A stretch of 64,000 nt of DNA from an uncultured Psychrobacter sp. Lineage in GTDB: Bacteria; Pseudomonadota; Gammaproteobacteria; Pseudomonadales; Moraxellaceae. Shown here one piece after another: positions 627-39,985 of the stretch. The translations under genes and the position numbers were made by a program. The DNA lies in NCBI RefSeq assembly GCF_947500265.1, contig NZ_CANMRN010000005.1:95307-159306 (forward strand). The letters are read 5' to 3'. Every line of letters starts with the position of its first letter. Within the stretch, counting starts at the first letter, position 1. The notes below the pieces were generated by a model. It searched no databases. It was not told where the DNA came from and was given only the letters and a program-made list of their open reading frames with translations.

Positions 627-972
627 TAAAGTATTAAAGCTAGCTCAATATTCCTACACGAACCCATTCTATGCGCTAGAATCAAGATTTTATTCAAAGA
701 ATATTAACTGCAGACAATGCTACTTCTATCTAATACTAATTTAAATCCACCTGAGCATTAAATAATTCTTAAATCTTAGGCAATTGTTATTGATTCAGCA
801 TAGTAGCTGATCGATAGCATTTATATGAGCTGCTCCAATTTTTCTCTGCTTTAGAGTTACCTTATAAAGCCATTCATATATTGAAATATAAATCCAAAAA
901 GTATTGTTACTTGATTTACAAAAATCAGACACCATGTACTATATTACAATAATTAAGAAATATGGAATAAAT
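627..972. other. gene-free region upstream of the CBASS operon
   Basis: AT-rich, with no recognisable ORF or RNA. It should contain the CBASS promoter, but I cannot point to a convincing -35/-10 pair. Confidence 0.5.
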
Positions 973-2013
973 ATGGCAGATTTGCAAACTCAATTTAAAG
1001 CATTTAATAGTAATATTTACTTAACTGGTCAAAGTGATGATTTTAAAAGGGCTAAAGAGAAAGATGACAGCATATTGAAAGAGCTAAAGGTGGTTTTCAA
1101 AGAGAAAGGATATCCTATAATAGAATCTTTTAAACAAGGTTCGTTTGCAGTTGATACAGCTATCTACAATTTAGATGGCGACTACGACTTTGATCGCACC
1201 TTAATTATTGATGCAGATTACGCTCCTGATGATCCTGTAGAGCCAAAGCGAGTTATTAAAGAGGTTTTAGAAAAAAGAAACTTTAAAGATCCTAAAATCA
1301 AAAAACCATGTGTTACTGCTGACTACAAATCATTTAATCTGCATATTGATTATACCGTGTATAAGGTTGATCAATCTTATACGACGTTTTTGGCGATTGG
1401 CAAACATGGCTCTAGAGATGAACATAAGGATTGGGCACAATCAGACCAGAAAGGTTTAATTGAATGGATTAATAATGTTGAATGCTATACTGGGAATGGG
1501 TCTAAAAAGCGACATCAATATAAACGTCTCATACGGTTTATGAAGCGCTGGCGAGACGTTAATTTTAGTGATGAGGTCAAAAAGAAAATATTTTCAATTG
1601 GTCTCACTGTAATGATAAAGTCTCAATATACTAACCAACTTTCACATCAAGAACAAGTTGATGATTTAAAGGCTTTAAGCCTTATAGTTGAGGGTATTTT
1701 AAATGGTTCATATTTAAAATACCAGTCAGATGGCAAGTATAGAGTTTCTGTTCAATTACCTACTCTTCCCTATAGAGATATTTTTCAACACAAAACAGAT
1801 GGTTATTCTTCCGAGGGCAGCGATAAGAATATTGGCACTCAATTTAGAAATAAATTAATATATCTGAACGACGAGTTGAAAAAAGCAATTGTGGAGCCAG
1901 ACCCTTACGAAGCGAGTAAATTACTAAGAGCAGTTTTTGGGAATTGTTTTCCCTTAGCAAATATTAAAAAAAATGAGAATACCCCATACTCTCGTACTGG
2001 TACATCTGCGTAA
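973..2013 (+). CDS. CBASS CD-NTase (cyclic oligonucleotide synthase)
   Basis: cGAS/DncV-like nucleotidyltransferase that makes a cyclic nucleotide signal on phage infection. With the ATG at 973 the protein has 346 residues; this start gives MADLQTQF, and the 23 extra residues in the ORF track look like leader. The nucleotidyltransferase signature is clear: QGSFAVDT at about 55-62, then LDGDYDFDRTL with the metal-binding acidic residues D70/D72, and a third acidic residue likely in FNLHIDYTVYK. The C-terminus ends in GTSA, a small-residue tail of the kind that Cap2 conjugates to target proteins in type II CBASS (family knowledge). The stop is 2 nt before the Cap2 start, so the genes are translationally linked. 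Base composition is more AT-rich than the core genes to the right, which suggests acquisition by transfer. The nucleotide product cannot be read from sequence. Confidence 0.93.
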   Translation: MADLQTQFKAFNSNIYLTGQSDDFKRAKEKDDSILKELKVVFKEKGYPIIESFKQGSFAVDTAIYNLDGDYDFDRTLIIDADYAPDDPVEPKRVIKEVLEKRNFKDPKIKKPCVTADYKSFNLHIDYTVYKVDQSYTTFLAIGKHGSRDEHKDWAQSDQKGLIEWINNVECYTGNGSKKRHQYKRLIRFMKRWRDVNFSDEVKKKIFSIGLTVMIKSQYTNQLSHQEQVDDLKALSLIVEGILNGSYLKYQSDGKYRVSVQLPTLPYRDIFQHKTDGYSSEGSDKNIGTQFRNKLIYLNDELKKAIVEPDPYEASKLLRAVFGNCFPLANIKKNENTPYSRTGTSA

Positions 2014-2015
2014 CT

Positions 2016-3647
2016 ATGATTCTAAGTGAAGAAAAACTGGCCAATTTCAAACATATATTAACTACACACCGTGCAGTTAATATATGTTTGGTTAATACTG
2101 GTACAGTATATGTATACGATTTTACTATTCCTAATTTATTCGACTTTCAAATTGAAATTAGAAATGAAACCGAATGGCTTGAATTACCTAAGATTCGTAT
2201 AGTGGCTGATGGTCATACCCCTATTCCTCACGTTAGCAACGACGGTTTAATCTGTGTTACAGATCAACAGGGCGAGCTTTTCGACAGTAACCGAATTGAA
2301 TCATTGTTTGAATATGCACTTGACGAAGCTATCAGAATCGTTCAGCCATACATAACTCAACCTACTAATTTGTATGAAGAGCTTGAAGGGTATGTTGAAA
2401 CGACCTTAGAAACCGGATATAAAATAACTTTATTAGATAAACCTAATGATATAGAAGAGTTCCAAGCCATTACCAAAATCAATAAAGGTAAGCTTAGTGT
2501 CAGTAGTATTCAAAAGTCAAATAGTAAGTCTTTTATATTAGATTATGGTACTTATCGAAATATTACTGTTATCAAATTAGCTGATGTAAAAGATTTCGTA
2601 TTACCTAACATCGGAGGAAACTTCGATAGGGATTGGTGGAGTAGTCAGAAACTTAAATTATCAGCTAAACAGCATAGCAAAATATATAATAATTTTTATC
2701 ACATAACACTAATAATTGTTCCTTACAAAGATCGTGAGACTTATATTGTCATATGTAATGACAATGCATCAAGTATTGTTAAAAATGACTTTTCTGTATA
2801 TTTAACTCAAAGATGTTGGAAGGACTACTTACTAGCCCGTACAGGGGAAGACGACGAGAACACACAGAACAAGACTGTGGTAATAGCTGGCTGTGGCTCA
2901 GTGGGTTCTAAAGTAGCTGGTTTTTTATCTGAATCAGATATTAGCCAACTAAGTCTTATTGATAACGATATCATGTCTCCAGATAATTTGATGCGTCATC
3001 AGTTAGGTGTAAAGAGTATTAATCACAGAAAAGCTTTTGCTCTTAAGGCTAGATTAAGTAGCGATATGCCTTTTATAGATATCAAAGCTTACCATATGGA
3101 AGTTCTTAAATGGTTGAAGATGCAAAATGATGATGACCTACGCGAGATCGACTGTTTGATCTTAACAACGGGACATATACCTACTGAACTTGCTATTTGC
3201 GAATACCTTTATTATAAAGATATTAATATACAAATTATTTCTGGCTGGGTTGAGGCTTATGGCTTAGGCGGACAAGCTTATAGTTTTAGAAATAACTCTA
3301 ATGGTTGCTTAAGATGCTTGTATACTGATGAAAACTCTATCATTAGTAGGTCGCAAGCTCAGCTATTTAACCTAAACCATCAAGTTGTCTCTAAAAATAT
3401 AACAGGGTGTTCAGGTGCTTTTACACCATATTCTTCTTTACACGCTACTAAAACAGCTTCAATTATAACTGAACTAGTACTGGCTCCTAAGTATGGTCTA
3501 TATACATGGGTGAATACAAGTAGAAAGCCCAATGACTACAATTTAGAAGCAACAGAATATTTTAATACTACGCTTGGTAGTGGTGGTTATCAGTTTAATG
3601 ATATTAACAATTATAAAATAGCAGGATGTGAATGTTGCAGTTCATAG
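2016..3647 (+). CDS. cap2: CBASS Cap2, E2-E1 (ThiF) conjugating enzyme
   Basis: A 543-residue ancillary enzyme of type II CBASS that activates the CD-NTase C-terminus and attaches it to a target, priming the synthase. The N-terminal ~150 residues look like an E2/UBC-type domain; IPHVSNDGLICV is consistent with an E2 active-site Cys. The C-terminal E1/ThiF adenylation domain is unmistakable: VVIAGCGSVGSKVAGFL, the ATP-binding glycine loop, then LIDNDIMSPDNLMRHQLG. Cysteines in NGCLRCLY and the terminal GCECCSS could form the structural zinc site usual for ThiF-like E1s. The gene starts 2 nt after the CD-NTase stop and overlaps the next gene by 16 bp. Length and order fit the family. Confidence 0.93.
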   Translation: MILSEEKLANFKHILTTHRAVNICLVNTGTVYVYDFTIPNLFDFQIEIRNETEWLELPKIRIVADGHTPIPHVSNDGLICVTDQQGELFDSNRIESLFEYALDEAIRIVQPYITQPTNLYEELEGYVETTLETGYKITLLDKPNDIEEFQAITKINKGKLSVSSIQKSNSKSFILDYGTYRNITVIKLADVKDFVLPNIGGNFDRDWWSSQKLKLSAKQHSKIYNNFYHITLIIVPYKDRETYIVICNDNASSIVKNDFSVYLTQRCWKDYLLARTGEDDENTQNKTVVIAGCGSVGSKVAGFLSESDISQLSLIDNDIMSPDNLMRHQLGVKSINHRKAFALKARLSSDMPFIDIKAYHMEVLKWLKMQNDDDLREIDCLILTTGHIPTELAICEYLYYKDINIQIISGWVEAYGLGGQAYSFRNNSNGCLRCLYTDENSIISRSQAQLFNLNHQVVSKNITGCSGAFTPYSSLHATKTASIITELVLAPKYGLYTWVNTSRKPNDYNLEATEYFNTTLGSGGYQFNDINNYKIAGCECCSS

Positions 3648-4183
3648 ATACTCGCCTTAAATGGGTAGAAAATAATCAATCAGAAGGTGTGTTTTCAGAG
3701 AAAGTATTATTAACTTGGGTAAAGTATCGTCAATGTCATGTTCAAGACAAAGAGGCAGGTGGCTTATTGATGGGCAGGTTCGCTCAAGACACACAATCAA
3801 TGTTGGTGGATGACTTAACCACTCCAATGTTCTTTGATAAACGTAAAAGAAGAATGTTCTATCGGTCTAAATCTCATAATAGAGAACTAAAAAAGTATTG
3901 GAAAAATACCCAAGGGTATGGGGGTTTACTAGGACTATGGCACACTCATCCAGAAAATATACCAACCCCATCATCAATGGATATTACCGACTTAAAAAAT
4001 CAGATCATGGCCTCTAAATATGTAACTAATAGACTAATTTATATTATTGTAGGTATTACGCATATTGGTGTTTGGACGGGTTACAAGAATGGCAAAGTTC
4101 AGTTTATAGGTCACATTGCCGTCGATAATAAAATTGATCACCACGATTATAACTTCAATCAACATATTGAAAAAAGGCTTTAA
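3632..4183 (+). CDS. cap3: CBASS Cap3, JAMM/Mov34 isopeptidase
   Basis: Zinc metallopeptidase of 183 residues that removes the CD-NTase from its conjugates and so counteracts Cap2. The full JAMM signature is present: catalytic Glu in DKEAGGLLMGR near residue 47, then LWHTHPENIPTPSSMD, matching HxH-x7-SxxD. The ATG at 3632 lies inside the cap2 3' end (16-bp overlap) with AGGA just upstream, so it is probably translationally coupled. The downstream effector ORF in the track overlaps this gene, but its better start at 4188 lies after the cap3 stop. Confidence 0.93.
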   Translation: MLQFIDTRLKWVENNQSEGVFSEKVLLTWVKYRQCHVQDKEAGGLLMGRFAQDTQSMLVDDLTTPMFFDKRKRRMFYRSKSHNRELKKYWKNTQGYGGLLGLWHTHPENIPTPSSMDITDLKNQIMASKYVTNRLIYIIVGITHIGVWTGYKNGKVQFIGHIAVDNKIDHHDYNFNQHIEKRL

Positions 4184-4187
4184 GCTT

Positions 4188-5225
4188 ATGTGGGAAAAAA
4201 TTCAATGGTTAATTATAACTGGACTCAAGTTCAGAACACCATATCCTAAAACAGCATGGGGAGTGCGCTGTTGTCTAACCTCACTAGGTATTAGTTTATA
4301 TTCGTTTCTTAACCTTTATATAAATTTAAAAGATAACCTTATAATAGATGCTATTGAGTTTACTTATAGAGAACCTACTATCTTGTATACATTAATAACT
4401 GTAGGTTTATTCTTAGTAGGTATGGCGTTAATTTATTCAGAATGGGATAAAAAATTCCGTCATATTGCTAAGGTTTTTATTTCAGCAATGCCAGGTGTGG
4501 CTATTTCTTTCCCTATCAATGTATTAGAGCCATCGGAAAGAGTATTGAGTAGAGAGGCTGTAAAACTTGGTGTCAATCAAGACAGTGAAGAAAATATACA
4601 AAAGCAAATAGAAGTATTTAATGCTGAACTTAAAGCAGATGTTGTCAAACGCTTTATACTGCCTCCAGATATAAAAAAAGCGTATGTTGGTGGCTTAGCT
4701 CGTATCCCTTTCCTAGTAGCCTATGGATCTACGTTGCGAAATCAATCAGCACAAATAGTATACTTCGATAAATTTCATCGTAATGGAGAATACGCTTTAC
4801 TTGAAGATTTTAACGAAAAAATAAGTTTAAAAAACTATGACCTCAGTCCTGGCACTAGTAATGATGTTGGGTTAGCTTTAGGCTTTACTACAGCTATATC
4901 AAGAGAACAGTTACCAGAGACCCTGAGAGACTCTGTAACTATTCTTTTTCCTAATAAAGTTGCAGCGAGAAACTTAATAAAAAATCAAGCTAACCTTCAA
5001 GATGTGTCAGATGAAATTACCCGTATAATTGATAACTTATCTTCTATAAGAAATGTTCAGAGAATACATCTTTTCCTATCTGTGCAGTCTTCTCTTGCTA
5101 TTGAAATAGGCAGACGCTATCAAGAAGGAACTCATAAAAATTGGATCATACATAATTTCAACCCTGACAAAGGTTGCTATGATTGGGCATTAGAGTTGTC
5201 AAGCAAAGGGCTTAGAGAGTTTTAA
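4188..5225 (+). CDS. CBASS effector, two-TM SAVED protein
   Basis: Predicted killer protein of the CBASS operon, 345 residues from the ATG at 4188. This start has an AAAAAAGG-like ribosome site about 10 nt upstream and follows the cap3 stop by 4 nt, so it is preferred over the track start at 4116. Two hydrophobic segments lie in the first ~90 residues (around CCLTSLGISLYSFLNLYI and LYTLITVGLFLVGMALIY). The rest is a SAVED sensor domain, recognisable by FLVAYGSTLRNQ and the C-terminal RIHLFLSVQSSLAIEIGRR with the GCYDWALEL end. SAVED domains bind cyclic oligonucleotides; TM-SAVED effectors (called Cap14 in one nomenclature, from memory) are thought to damage the inner membrane on activation. 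Confidence 0.88.
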   Translation: MWEKIQWLIITGLKFRTPYPKTAWGVRCCLTSLGISLYSFLNLYINLKDNLIIDAIEFTYREPTILYTLITVGLFLVGMALIYSEWDKKFRHIAKVFISAMPGVAISFPINVLEPSERVLSREAVKLGVNQDSEENIQKQIEVFNAELKADVVKRFILPPDIKKAYVGGLARIPFLVAYGSTLRNQSAQIVYFDKFHRNGEYALLEDFNEKISLKNYDLSPGTSNDVGLALGFTTAISREQLPETLRDSVTILFPNKVAARNLIKNQANLQDVSDEITRIIDNLSSIRNVQRIHLFLSVQSSLAIEIGRRYQEGTHKNWIIHNFNPDKGCYDWALELSSKGLREF

Positions 5226-27387: not shown

Positions 27388-28653
27388 ATGGCTATCGACA
27401 CTGCAAACGATATCAATAAGCTCGAATGCCGAGACAAAGATTATTTTGTCAGTATCTCAGGTGTGGCTGGCCTAAGTCTGCGTATTTATCCAAATGGCAA
27501 AAAGGAATACTACTTACGTTATTCCCATCCGCATATCGAGGGCAAACGCCCTAGGATGATGTTGGGTAAGATTGAGGATATCAGTCTCCATGAGGTTAAG
27601 TATAAAGCAGACACCATTCTTGATATGGTTGCCAAAGGCTCTGACCCAAAAGCTATCCAGCAAAAAGAACAAACCAATAAATATACTCATCTAAAAAATG
27701 CACCATTTTCTGAGATTGCTCAAGCATGGCGAGAACACAAAACAGCAGGTCGCAATCAAAGTAAATCTAAAAAACCGTCATACAGTGAGTCAACCCTCAA
27801 GTTTTGGGATTTATGTCTAGGATATATGTGCCAAGAAATTGGTGATTTAAGAATGGACGATATCACCAGCGAGATGATACTGAGTGTGTGTGAGTCGATT
27901 CAGAATAATGATAATCAAGCGACTTTCGTTGGTGCGAGCACTCGTTTATATACTGAAAAAGTGTTTTCATTCGCTGTTGCTCGAGGGTTGTGCGATAGAA
28001 ATGTGGCAATTGATACCCGTGGTGAGCTTGCACCTGCCAATTCAGGCAATCACTTGCCAGCCATCACCAAACCAGATCAATTTGCGACCCTCTTAAAGGA
28101 TATGTCTGATTTTAGAGGTGCAAGTAAGATCACATTAGAGGCAATGAACTTATTACCTTACGTGTTTGTACGTAGCATCGATCTGCGCTCAATGCGTTGG
28201 AATGACATCGATTGGGACAATAATACATGGGCATTCTCCCCGACCAAAGGCGAAGGTCGTGACGATATGGTCTCGCACTTAGTTGTTCCTTTAGCCACGC
28301 AAGTAATTTCGCGATTACGAAACATCCAGTCAATTACTGGGCATAAGGAATATGTATTTGCCTCGATACGCGGTTCAAGCAATGCTTATATTAGTAAAGC
28401 GACGTTGGTACAGATATTCCACCGGCTTGGATACAAAGATGTGCAGTGTGCGCATGGATTTCGAGCATCCGCTAAAACTTTGCTCATGGAGCAGCCTGAG
28501 CTACGCTATTCTGACATCGTCACAGAGTTACAGCTAGGTCATCGAATCAAAGACACACATGGCGGGGCTTACAACAGACTCGATGAAATCGATACTAGGG
28601 TACAGATGATGCAAGATTGGGCAGATCATATAGATAATCTTCGGAGTCGTTAG
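27388..28653 (+). CDS. P4-type tyrosine integrase
   Basis: A 421-residue site-specific recombinase. The N-terminal DUF4102-like arm-binding region contains LSLRIYPNGKKEYYLRYSHP, followed by a SAM-like core-binding domain (about 110-200) and the catalytic domain. Active-site residues are seen in VRSIDLRSMRW (Arg), HGFRASAKTLL (HxxR), LGHRIKDTHGGAYNR (His and the nucleophile Tyr). Length and catalytic motifs look complete, so it may be functional. No tRNA lies beside it; decayed DNA precedes it and ppc follows. Confidence 0.92.
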   Translation: MAIDTANDINKLECRDKDYFVSISGVAGLSLRIYPNGKKEYYLRYSHPHIEGKRPRMMLGKIEDISLHEVKYKADTILDMVAKGSDPKAIQQKEQTNKYTHLKNAPFSEIAQAWREHKTAGRNQSKSKKPSYSESTLKFWDLCLGYMCQEIGDLRMDDITSEMILSVCESIQNNDNQATFVGASTRLYTEKVFSFAVARGLCDRNVAIDTRGELAPANSGNHLPAITKPDQFATLLKDMSDFRGASKITLEAMNLLPYVFVRSIDLRSMRWNDIDWDNNTWAFSPTKGEGRDDMVSHLVVPLATQVISRLRNIQSITGHKEYVFASIRGSSNAYISKATLVQIFHRLGYKDVQCAHGFRASAKTLLMEQPELRYSDIVTELQLGHRIKDTHGGAYNRLDEIDTRVQMMQDWADHIDNLRSR

Positions 28654-35416: not shown

Positions 35417-35463
35417 AAGCCCTATTTCTCCTCTCTAAACATGAGAGAAGAGAAATGGGGCTT
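35417..35463. terminator. bidirectional terminator
   Basis: AAGCCCTATTTCTC and GAGAAATGGGGCTT form a long stem with inner CTCTC/GAGAG pairing. An A-run precedes it and T-rich sequence follows. It lies between the convergent LysR and hypothetical gene. Confidence 0.75.
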
Positions 35464-35520: not shown

Positions 35521-35973
35521 CTAATAACTGGATTCACGATATAAGGTTTTATGTGCTTCTATTCTAAAGTCTTCAGCGCTGACAGCAGGCGTTATACCAT
35601 GTGCACTGTACTTGGCTTGTATGATCTTTTCTTCCTCACGAAATAGCACATTTTGCGCTTCTTGCTTGAAGTCATGATAGCTAATGGCGGTGTCATCTTC
35701 ATGACCGTCAATAACTATAGGTTCGCTAGGTTGATTTTGGCTATTCGAATGCTGTTGTACAGTCTGATTAGCATTAGCCTCTTTAGTCATGTTGCTGACT
35801 TTTAAACCGTTATTAGTCGTCGACGCTTGAGAGAGCGTGGAAGAAATACGGTTAGACATATAGAAGGCAGATAGTAGAACAATACAAATGACACTGATAA
35901 TAGCAAAAACAAGACTACGGGGTCTGATGCTTTTTGGCTCGATATCATTATTCACGTTTTCTGATTCATTCAT
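35521..35973 (-). CDS. single-TM protein with two C-terminal DFxxE..LYRE motifs
   Basis: Family not recognised. The 150-residue protein has a short N-terminal cytoplasmic part, one TM helix (about 20-41, LVFAIISVICIVLLSAFYM), a Asn/Gln/Ser-rich linker, and two copies of a motif: ISYHDFKQEAQNVLFREEE (about 95-113) and AEDFRIEAHKTLYRESSY at the very end. The neighbour upstream on the same strand ends with the same motif, so the two are related and may be co-transcribed. Predicted topology puts the motifs outside the inner membrane. Confidence 0.75.
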   Translation of the reverse strand: MNESENVNNDIEPKSIRPRSLVFAIISVICIVLLSAFYMSNRISSTLSQASTTNNGLKVSNMTKEANANQTVQQHSNSQNQPSEPIVIDGHEDDTAISYHDFKQEAQNVLFREEEKIIQAKYSAHGITPAVSAEDFRIEAHKTLYRESSY

Positions 35974-36135
35974 AGTTACGTACCATCTAATTTATATCAT
36001 CAACGGCAAACAACCATGCCTTTTACATAATGATACGAATTTTATATTGTGTTGCAATAATTTCTAGTACGAACGTCTCGAATAAATTGATAGACGGTTA
36101 TCTAACTGTTAAAAATGGTATAAAACGTAGCCCCT

Positions 36136-37155
36136 TTAGTCATTGGTTTCGCGGTACAAGGTAGTCTGTGACTCTTGTCTAAAGTCCTCATAAGTTATAG
36201 CAGCTTTCTCAGTAGCTATAACAGTGGCATCATTTTCTGGTGTAGGAGCTTCAGAAGTTGACTCTGATTCACTAACAGCTGGCAGGTCTTGTTTATTGTT
36301 GTCCAAAGTATCTTGCTGAGTAGTGGCTGGTTGTGTACTTACAGGGTCAACGCCATCTGTAGTTGTTTGATTATCAGTAGACAGTACTGGATCAGCACTA
36401 ACAGCTGGTGTACTTTCTGTCTCTACATGACTATCAGTACTATTGTCTATACTATCAACCGCAGAAGTAGATAAGACTCCTGAAAACACGAGCATTAATA
36501 TAATAGCAATCAATACTACTGAACCAATCGCCATAGCCATCATGATTGGTTTCTTGCTTTTGATCCCTTTATTGTCTATGACTGGCCCTTCGATAGCTGA
36601 TTCAGACACATTCTCAATTTTTAAAGGGATGTTTAAAGAATCATCATCCGATATATCATTTATGTTAGATTCACTATGGTCAATCGTAGAGGGTGACTCT
36701 GTTTGATTGCTACTATCTATATTGTTGCGTTCTATATACTCTGAGGCTTCTGTATTTGAACTGACATCATTGACATCAATACTAATACTGTTGCTATCAT
36801 TAGTGATATTCAGCACATGATTTTCAGATATATTTTCAAATACTACATTTGTATTTGATACTTTAGAAGTGGTGTTTTCTGCTGTAGCATCTTCTGTTTC
36901 TAGCAATAACTCTTGCTCACTGCTTTGATCTTCAAACAGTTGCAACTCTTCTGTGCTCAAGGGTTCGAAAGCGGCAAGGTTTTTTGCACTTTCTAGTGTT
37001 TCAAATTCAGCCTGATCGTTCTCTTCTGAGCCATGGACTCGATTAATAAAGCGTTCATAGATATCATTGTTATTACGCTTACGCGACTTTTGGTCAATAA
37101 TTCTAGCCAATTTTTCTTCAAAATCGGTGCCAGCGTCTTCTTTTTCGTCGCTCAT
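36136..37155 (-). CDS. acidic single-TM protein ending in the same DFRQE..LYRE motif
   Basis: Family not recognised. The 339-residue protein has a long acidic, Ser/Asn-rich N-terminal region (1-200, probably disordered and cytoplasmic). Its start DFEEKLARIIDQKSRKRNNN looks helical and charged. A TM helix follows (about 203-227, PIMMAMAIGSVVLIAIILML), then a Thr/Ser/Pro-poor acidic linker, and the terminal motif ITYEDFRQESQTTLYRETND. The pattern matches the downstream neighbour (162 bp away). It is divergent to a LysR gene. Confidence 0.75.
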   Translation of the reverse strand: MSDEKEDAGTDFEEKLARIIDQKSRKRNNNDIYERFINRVHGSEENDQAEFETLESAKNLAAFEPLSTEELQLFEDQSSEQELLLETEDATAENTTSKVSNTNVVFENISENHVLNITNDSNSISIDVNDVSSNTEASEYIERNNIDSSNQTESPSTIDHSESNINDISDDDSLNIPLKIENVSESAIEGPVIDNKGIKSKKPIMMAMAIGSVVLIAIILMLVFSGVLSTSAVDSIDNSTDSHVETESTPAVSADPVLSTDNQTTTDGVDPVSTQPATTQQDTLDNNKQDLPAVSESESTSEAPTPENDATVIATEKAAITYEDFRQESQTTLYRETND

Positions 37156-37388: not shown

Positions 37389-38414
37389 ATGGATTTAAAA
37401 CAGCTTAATGCGTTTATCGCGGTTGCCGACTTGCGCAGCTTTAGCGCGGCCGCCACCAAAACAGGACTGTCACAGCCAAGCCTGAGTCGATTGCTAAAAC
37501 AGTTAGAGACTGACATGGGCGTGGTGCTTATTGATCGCTACCACAGGCCACTACATCTGACTGAAGCTGGCAGTTTTTTCTACGATAAAATAAGCACTAT
37601 CCTGACCGAGATTGATACGGTGACCAGTATGACTCAGCGTCTATCAGCACCAAGCAGCGTTTTAAATATAGGTTTTGTGCCCTCAGTGCTATATGGCCTA
37701 CTGCCTGAAATCATTGCCACGCTTAAACAGTTCAGCCCTGATATCGATGTTAATTTAAAAGACATTAGCTCATATCAACAAATGGATGCCCTCAAGTCCG
37801 GTGAGATTGATATTGGTTTTGGCCGATTTGCCCATCAAGACCCATGGATTCAGCAGATTCTGCTACGTCATGAACGCTACGTGGTGGCATTGCCAAAATC
37901 ACACCCGCTTGCCAATGTACGTAAGCAGCGCTTGATAGACCTAGCGAACAATCGCTTAATTTTATACCATCAAACACATTTGCCAGTCTCGTCCACGGTG
38001 ACGACAGAGGCAGTGACCCAAGCGAACGACAAGCTGTCTACAAGTAGAGTCAACCGTGCTGCTACTCATGAAGCAGCATCTAGCGAGCCTATTACTGAGC
38101 CTTTACTACATCTTTTTGCCCAGTATGGTATCTCGCCTTTTATGACCACGACAGTCAGCGATTTGCAGGTCGCATTGGGACTGGTCGCGGCAGGCGAAGG
38201 CATTACATTGGTGCCTGCCAGCTTGCAAACTGTACGTACGGAACAGATCAGCTACCAACGTTTGGTTCATGAAAATGTCACCTCCCCTATTTATTTACAC
38301 ACCCTCAAAGACTTTGTACATCCCAAAATACCTGACTTGCTCACAGCCATTTATCACGTCTACGAGCAGCGCGGCATCACTTATCGGCAGCAAAATTTTG
38401 TGTCACAGGCCTAA
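37389..38414 (+). CDS. LysR-family regulator beside the methylcitrate locus
   Basis: A 341-residue LysR protein. DNA-binding helix-turn-helix: RSFSAAATKTGLSQPSLSRL in the first 40 residues; the effector domain contains LNIGFVPSVLYGLLPEI. An insert of about 30 residues around 205-235 (TTEAVTQANDKLSTSRVNRA) lengthens it beyond the usual ~300. It precedes the Nramp-like gene and prpB on the same strand and could regulate them, though many prp loci use GntR or Fis-type regulators. Confidence 0.88.
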   Translation: MDLKQLNAFIAVADLRSFSAAATKTGLSQPSLSRLLKQLETDMGVVLIDRYHRPLHLTEAGSFFYDKISTILTEIDTVTSMTQRLSAPSSVLNIGFVPSVLYGLLPEIIATLKQFSPDIDVNLKDISSYQQMDALKSGEIDIGFGRFAHQDPWIQQILLRHERYVVALPKSHPLANVRKQRLIDLANNRLILYHQTHLPVSSTVTTEAVTQANDKLSTSRVNRAATHEAASSEPITEPLLHLFAQYGISPFMTTTVSDLQVALGLVAAGEGITLVPASLQTVRTEQISYQRLVHENVTSPIYLHTLKDFVHPKIPDLLTAIYHVYEQRGITYRQQNFVSQA

Positions 38415-38698: not shown

Positions 38699-39985
38699 AT
38701 GTCCACACAACAACTCAACAACCCAAGTGCCCCTAACGATAGCGTTGCCTCGCAACAAGAGGGCTTTAGCTGGCGCATCTTTGGCCCAGGAATTTTGATG
38801 GCGACTGCTGCCATTGGTGGTTCGCATTTGATTTCGTCAACACAGGCGGGTGCTATCTATGGCTGGCAATTGGCTATTATGATTGTATTGGCCAACGTGT
38901 TTAAGTACCCGTTTTTTCGCTTTGCAACTGACTACGTCTACGATACTGGCGAGAGTTTGATTGCAGGCTATGCCAAACGCTCAAAGGTATATCTTTGGGT
39001 ATATTTTATTCTTTCTATCTTGTCAGCGGTTATTAGTACGGGTGCGGTTTCACTCATCGCCGCCGTGATCTTGGGCTTTATGTTGCCAGCCTCACTTGGT
39101 CTGTCGACAATGGCGTTATCTCTCATTATCGTCGCGGTCTCTTGGTTCTTTTTGATTGCAGGGCATTATAAATTGCTCGATGGTGTGACTAAGTGGATTA
39201 TGATTGCGCTTACCACGGCCACCGTCGCTGCAGTTATCATTGCAGCTGGCAAGCCAACCGTTATGGCAGTAGATTTTGTGGCGGCCTCTCCTTGGAACCT
39301 GGCCACGTTGGGCTTCATCGTAGCACTCATGGGCTGGATGCCAGCACCGCTTGAGTTTGCTGCGATTACCTCTATGTGGACCTCTGCCAAAGTCAAAGCA
39401 GATCACACCACGCATAGTCAAGGCTTGTTAGATTTTAATGTTGGCTATGCAGTTTCAGCGATATTAGCATTGTTCTTCTTATCGTTAGGTGTGTTTGTCC
39501 AGTACGGATCAGGACAAGAGATTGAATTGGTTGGCGGTGCTTATATCAACCAGTTGATCAATATGTATACCGCAACCATTGGTGAATGGTCGAGATTGCT
39601 GGTCGCTTTCGTCGCCTTTATGTGTATGTTCGGCACGACCATCACCTGTGCTGATGGCTACGGACGTGCTAATGCTGAATGCTGGCGCCTGCTAAAAGGT
39701 GAAAACGAAATCAATAAAAAGCAGATCGCTTTTTGGACGACCTATGCCATCGGTGGTGGGCTAGTAATTATCACTTTCTTCACAGGACAATTAGGCGCTA
39801 TGCTTAAGTTTGCCATGATATCGGCGTTCGTCTCTGCACCTATTTTTGGTTGGTTAAACTACTCATTGGTTAAAAAGCATAAGAAACTGTCAGCAGGTAT
39901 GAATGCTCTGTCTATCGCAGGCTTGATATTCTTGGCAGGCTTCGCGTTATTGTTCTTGGCCAATATGGCAGGTTTATTTGCTTAA
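38699..39985 (+). CDS. Nramp-like membrane transporter lacking the metal-site motif
   Basis: ATG at 38699 with GAGGT upstream gives 428 residues. About 11 hydrophobic segments and the framework GPGILMATAAIGGSHLIS then TQAGAIYGW align with helix 1 of Nramp carriers. Where metal carriers have DPGN, this protein has GGSH. In helix 6 the MPH motif reads MPAP. The metal-coordinating Asp and Asn are thus replaced, so the substrate may be something other than Mn/Fe. The location next to prpB raises the possibility of an organic acid, which is only inference. Confidence 0.82.
   Translation: MSTQQLNNPSAPNDSVASQQEGFSWRIFGPGILMATAAIGGSHLISSTQAGAIYGWQLAIMIVLANVFKYPFFRFATDYVYDTGESLIAGYAKRSKVYLWVYFILSILSAVISTGAVSLIAAVILGFMLPASLGLSTMALSLIIVAVSWFFLIAGHYKLLDGVTKWIMIALTTATVAAVIIAAGKPTVMAVDFVAASPWNLATLGFIVALMGWMPAPLEFAAITSMWTSAKVKADHTTHSQGLLDFNVGYAVSAILALFFLSLGVFVQYGSGQEIELVGGAYINQLINMYTATIGEWSRLLVAFVAFMCMFGTTITCADGYGRANAECWRLLKGENEINKKQIAFWTTYAIGGGLVIITFFTGQLGAMLKFAMISAFVSAPIFGWLNYSLVKKHKKLSAGMNALSIAGLIFLAGFALLFLANMAGLFA

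Follow-up and report, generated by a model that had tools for sequence, protein, structure and literature searches.

Why two neighbouring membrane proteins of different size should end in the same short sequence was the question raised by one gene pair in a 64,000-nucleotide stretch of DNA from an uncultured Psychrobacter sp. (hereafter the window). Both genes were recovered as open reading frames on the reverse strand, in agreement with the initial annotation, which had described two adjacent same-strand genes for single-TM proteins. The large gene (36136..37155, - strand; 339 aa) was the upstream member and the small gene (35521..35973, - strand; 150 aa) the downstream one. A single hydrophobic segment, flanked N-terminally by K/R, was present in each protein, at residues 203-228 of the large protein (36472..36549, -; KSKK) and residues 20-40 of the small protein (35854..35916, -; RPR). 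The large protein, whose predicted cytoplasmic part was acidic and about 200 aa long, was assigned an N-in orientation, a periplasmic linker and one tail, and the small protein an N-in orientation and two tails, without a cytoplasmic box. The conserved box in the large protein (IYERFIxRV; KSRKRNNNDIYERFINRV, residues 23-40, 37036..37089, -) is absent from the initial annotation; a second one (FEPLSTEELQLFE, residues 63-75, 36931..36969, -) was retained in many relatives (e.g. YEPLSEAELGLFA in L086). Based on consensus matching only, no terminator was found between the two genes on their strand, while a promoter-like site was placed between them (36066-36039, -) and a terminator-like hairpin 3' of the small gene (35424..35456, -). 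The neighbourhood included a divergent LysR regulator (37389..38414, +), a homologue of which flanks tail genes, and an NRAMP-like transporter (38699..39985, +), marker of a conserved LysR-NRAMP-prpB-prpC-acnD locus in which we take the last three genes to be prpB, prpC and acnD from our own reading of their sequences.

The shared motif, DF[KR]xE[AS]xxxL[FY]RE, occurred three times in the six-frame translation of the window, always within these two genes: once in the large protein (AITYEDFRQESQTTLYRET, residues 319-337, 36145..36201, -) and twice in the small protein, as copy 1 (ISYHDFKQEAQNVLFRE, residues 97-113, 35635..35685, -) and, 34 residues further on at the C-terminus, copy 2 (VSAEDFRIEAHKTLYRE, residues 131-147, 35533..35583, -). 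When the small protein was shuffled 200,000 times, the strict motif never appeared. Across the whole 3.31 Mb genome, a looser DNA pattern retrieved the three copies and one unrelated chance site, with no matches in the reversed control, so that the distribution noticed at first, once in the longer protein and twice in the shorter, accounts for the genome's only copies. Searches of Pfam and NCBIfam returned no family above cut-off for the window proteins, consistent with the earlier remark that no named family was known. A Psychrobacter tail-protein family was defined here by one TM, an N-in orientation and a C-terminal [ST]xxDFxxE[AS]xxx[LI][FY]R tail, all of which the window proteins possessed. 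Among 108 distinct family proteins, 28 had two tail copies, and the motif core stopped 3-4 residues short of the C-terminus in 100. This position does not match C-terminal sorting signals such as LPXTG and PEP-CTERM, where a hydrophobic helix and basic residues come after the motif; neither a second hydrophobic stretch nor a basic stop followed the tail, which was also found internally, and the sorting tag suggested in the initial annotation was therefore abandoned. The tail could also be the element by which a periplasmic protease or a quality-control factor recognises these proteins, with regulation by turnover as for anti-sigma factors; a short motif that is strongly conserved and lies near the end of a domain otherwise disordered would suit this role. 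However, the internal copies, the variable and polar last residues (TND, TKD, SSY), which are unlike the C-terminal residues of Prc/DegS substrates, and the lack of any linked protease or sigma factor seen at the locus make this explanation quite improbable.

Selection on the two proteins was concentrated in the tails. Based on Nei-Gojobori counts from 15 genomes for the large gene and 16 for the small gene, the dN/dS of the tail was 0.02 in the large protein and 0.06 (copy 1) and 0.30 (copy 2) in the small protein. Residues 1-45 of the large protein had a value of 0.14, and values of 0.46-0.60 were obtained for its acidic part, TM and linker; in the small protein, the TM, the linker and the tail spacer gave 0.42-0.48. 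As the tail values were low compared to the 0.4-0.6 of the TMs and linkers, the tail is what selection retains, and it is under extreme purifying selection. Conservation in homologues had been set as a test of the motif, which proved to be their best-conserved part. In one genome (G162, L061), the small protein stopped early past its first tail (...TPAISAIRLY) and had lost the second copy, the one with the lower constraint.

The tail-only profile had matches in 90 of the 105 sampled Psychrobacter genomes; at E 1e-4, the 392 genomes searched in the order gave no match outside this genus, and the profile search proposed earlier thus placed the tight form of the tail in Psychrobacter. All close relatives of the small gene came from Psychrobacter, and the large and small genes were neighbours in nearly all close relatives, as a co-occurrence check had been meant to establish. 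A single gene with a single tail was found in G070, G156 and G102, and loci L091, L086 and L196 had one tail gene only. Thirteen weak matches in another Moraxellaceae genus (g15; E 0.02-0.09) were partial, many of them in 48-71-aa frames, and were attributed to chance, and matches of the large-protein profile in g15 and g10 corresponded to an efflux-adaptor TM or to a doubtful frame. A plasmid origin of the tail genes was also rejected, with no tblastn match in PLSDB.

The two proteins had been described as otherwise dissimilar, which holds in direct comparison but not when homologues from elsewhere are included. With the tails removed, BLAST matches formed a chain from the small protein of the window to the L016 small protein (E 0.024, the weakest link), from there to L091 (1e-5), from L091 to the L089 small protein (5e-13) and to L086 (6e-7), and from L086 to the large protein of the window (7e-4). 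With the tails included, the small protein matched L086 and L087 over ~146 aa (E 0.007-0.008). Since this chain joins the tail-free proteins, the large and small proteins are, as judged from their sequences, diverged tandem paralogues, which argues against the spread of a tail between unrelated proteins. The small protein of L088/L089 still possessed a cytoplasmic VYEQYLK box and one tail; in the clade of the window, the small protein has lost the box and carries two tails. The N-box HMM gave no significant match, even iterated, between the IYERF and VYEQY paralogues, whose likeness is visual only, or to the N-terminus of the DUF805 protein described below.

According to the charge rule, 92 of 102 single-TM family proteins were N-in, so that the tail is most likely periplasmic, on the outer side of the inner membrane as expected from the positive-inside rule; most of the other ten, which were N-out or tied, had been translated from a start within the TM. 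The 102-protein count and the charge-rule topology, together with the conservation of the tail, favour the proposal of the initial annotation that a functional tail was duplicated and faces outwards from the inner membrane. In the low-confidence AF2 monomer model of the small protein, the only three helices were 19-67, containing the TM, and 99-110 and 133-144, corresponding to the tails (pLDDT about 71-76 within a disordered linker); the model of the DUF805-tail protein, likewise a low-confidence monomer prediction, had a tail helix at 336-345, itself of low confidence. From these models we infer that the tail forms a short helix, with an S/T-x-x-D/E start followed by F, A/S, L and Y/F; its [ST]xx[DE] start would fit a helix capping box. 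The hydrophobic moment of the tail was not above that of shuffles, and the case for a 'docking helix' consequently consists of the AF2 models and conservation. The helices could instead bind each other, between the large and small proteins or between the two tails of the small one, giving periplasmic homo- or hetero-oligomers with no outside receptor. Such self-association would agree with a tail common to exactly the proteins that co-occur, with the two copies in 28/108 family proteins and with the maintained adjacency of the pair, but it is unlikely given the genomes with a lone single-tail gene and the 12 residues of the helix, few for a coiled coil to be stable; in the AF2 monomer, the two tails of the small protein were not confidently paired, which is not a strong test.

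A possible origin of the tail was found at the same locus in other genomes. In G244, G258, G262 and G138, a DUF805 protein with a C-terminal tail adjoined the same NRAMP/LysR/prpB genes; the tail of G244 (ISFEEFKQEAQTTIYRE) matched the tail profile at E 3.5e-8, and those of the other three were decayed forms, as were the tails of the DUF805 form in L193, L194 and L189. Past the DUF805-tail gene, the operon contained genes for RDD, SpoIIM, two unnamed membrane proteins, a DUF4350-like protein, MoxR and DUF58, and G250 was organised in a comparable way, with a tail that had decayed further. The operon-bearing genomes were early-branching Psychrobacter. In L209-L213 and L199, the order was DUF805-(DUF805)-RDD-SpoIIM-X-Y-DUF4350-MoxR-DUF58, where X ('NMKVxxRPMSTxQAxDLG...') had no Pfam match and Y only a sub-cut-off match, both being conserved in 6/6 genomes read. 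The window proteins shared with these operon heads (L202, L209-L213) the locus, defined by LysR/NRAMP/prpB, a similar tail, an N-terminal basic stretch and the inner membrane location; unlike them, they had no DUF805 domain and one TM instead of about four, and DUF805 (PF05656) scored above gathering in the L202/L199 relatives and not in the window proteins. For the DUF805 form, charge counts fitted a periplasmic tail only if the third hydrophobic segment stops short of spanning the membrane; a full TM at this place would put the tail in the cytoplasm, contrary to the single-pass form. In another genus, G006 and G022 possessed DUF805 proteins with SYEDFVKASEQQIF-like C-terminal tails, and in G006 the gene adjoined a LysR gene of 51% identity. 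The Tol-Pal neighbourhood of the G006 gene (L240) was not shared by G022 (L241) and was dropped.

The genome G182 encoded two single-pass tail proteins, one at either end of the whole operon, and beyond its last tail gene lay an MtfA-like gene with 85-87% identity to the one that neighbours the tail genes in G192, G023 and G276. SpoIIM was undetectable in the genome of the window (G000) and in eight others, and present in six; with LysR and NRAMP/prp as neighbours, the pair in G000 is not part of a MoxR-DUF58-SpoIIM-RDD operon. In the NRAMP tree, the operon genomes fell outside the single clade (97/97) of single-pass-tail genomes. In the simplest history, the tail would first have been the C-terminus of a DUF805 subunit heading a MoxR-type operon; single-pass derivatives carrying it would then have stood at both operon ends, the state seen in G182, and loss of the intervening operon by deletion would have produced the adjacent pair, still under selection. 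That an operon deletion left the pair is the best reading, and its polarity (deletion rather than insertion) is what we infer from one neighbour-gene tree that did not contain G182. This origin beside, or within, a MoxR-DUF58-SpoIIM-RDD-DUF805 locus did not figure in the initial annotation. The tail thus seems to have persisted longer than the machinery to which it first belonged. Whether the pair are now functionless, decaying relics of the lost operon has to be considered, given the loss itself, the fast-evolving linkers, the truncated second tail in G162 and the tail genes missing beside an integrase in G080 and G174; against dN/dS values of 0.02 and 0.06 in the tails and 0.14 around the N-terminal box, and retention in 90 of 105 genomes, this is most improbable.

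Overall, the tail is best guessed to be a putative binding tag. In the model proposed here, which we judge slightly more probable than not, it would be a helical motif through which bitopic adaptors, disordered over most of their length, dock in the periplasm, and its history would have passed through operon deletion. With its N-terminus in the cytoplasm, each protein would span the membrane by one TM helix and present, on a disordered periplasmic linker, a ~17-residue tail that docks as a short helix onto a periplasmic-side partner. The cytoplasmic boxes of the large protein would hold a partner in the cytosol or the membrane, which would make this protein a tether between the two sides of the membrane. 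The small protein, which lacks a cytoplasmic box but has two tails, would serve as a bivalent bridge or compete for the same site. At the sequence level, the model draws on conservation, selection and charge-rule topology, on the paralogy of the pair and on its connection with the DUF805/MoxR/DUF58/SpoIIM/RDD locus. It can be extended, tentatively, to a hitherto unrecognised, portable periplasmic docking helix that had its origin in the DUF805 subunit of a MoxR-type AAA+ membrane machine. Copies of it would have passed to bitopic carriers and, once the machine was deleted, have been kept by near-absolute selection; such retention would imply a second, conserved envelope receptor, also addressed by the MoxR-type machine. 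The tail pair is real and conserved, and its origin is more informative than the initial annotation supposed. To our knowledge, MoxR-DUF58-SpoIIM-RDD membrane operons, present in many bacteria, have no known job. A tail common to one operon subunit and to stand-alone proteins in genomes without detectable SpoIIM offers a handle on the contacts of this machine, and as it is shared with a machine subunit, its binding partner in Psychrobacter would be a candidate receptor. The tail would also be a defined periplasmic short linear motif, a class seldom described in bacteria.

FtsN and RodZ possess a cytoplasmic N-terminus, one TM and a periplasmic linker with a short functional element, and the window proteins shared the N-in, one-TM, periplasmic-linker plan of these bitopic divisome and elongasome proteins. 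Matches of the small protein to their models were sub-threshold (FtsN, 16.8 bits vs a cut-off of 107.65; RodZ, 17.9 vs 375), and with a score below the TIGR02223 cut-off and no SPOR or other named domain, they were not assigned to FtsN. AdvA and Aeg1, division proteins of the related genus Acinetobacter, are likewise membrane proteins (PMC7481262, PMC11449484). AdvA, with a DUF4175 domain and two predicted TM helices (PMC7481262), resembles hardly any other sequence, but was rejected as a homologue, the window proteins having one TM and no DUF4175 match. The operon of the early-branching relatives resembled RavA-ViaA, a MoxR/VWA membrane system (PMC9489729), in holding a MoxR AAA+ ATPase and a DUF58/VWA protein; unlike such systems, the window genes encoded neither ATPase nor VWA, and the tail proteins alone persisted.

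Other features of the locus and of the window were also recorded. A Psychrobacter subclade (G111, G240, G105, G130, G210, G008; L183-L188) had two tandem NRAMP-like genes at the locus, without tail genes. An integrase-like gene (MAIDTANDINKLECRDKDY...) was located at 27388-28653 (+) of the window and also in L190 (2560-3837) and L191 (1703-2980). Its close relative adjoined LysR in G080 and G174, where tail genes were missing, and an integrating element may therefore have replaced them. Finally, PADLOC models identified a complete-looking type II CBASS operon (934-5225, +), comprising genes for an oligonucleotide cyclase (934-2013, +), E1-E2 (2016-3647, +), JAB (3632-4183, +) and a 2TM effector with SAVED-type matches (4188-5225, +).
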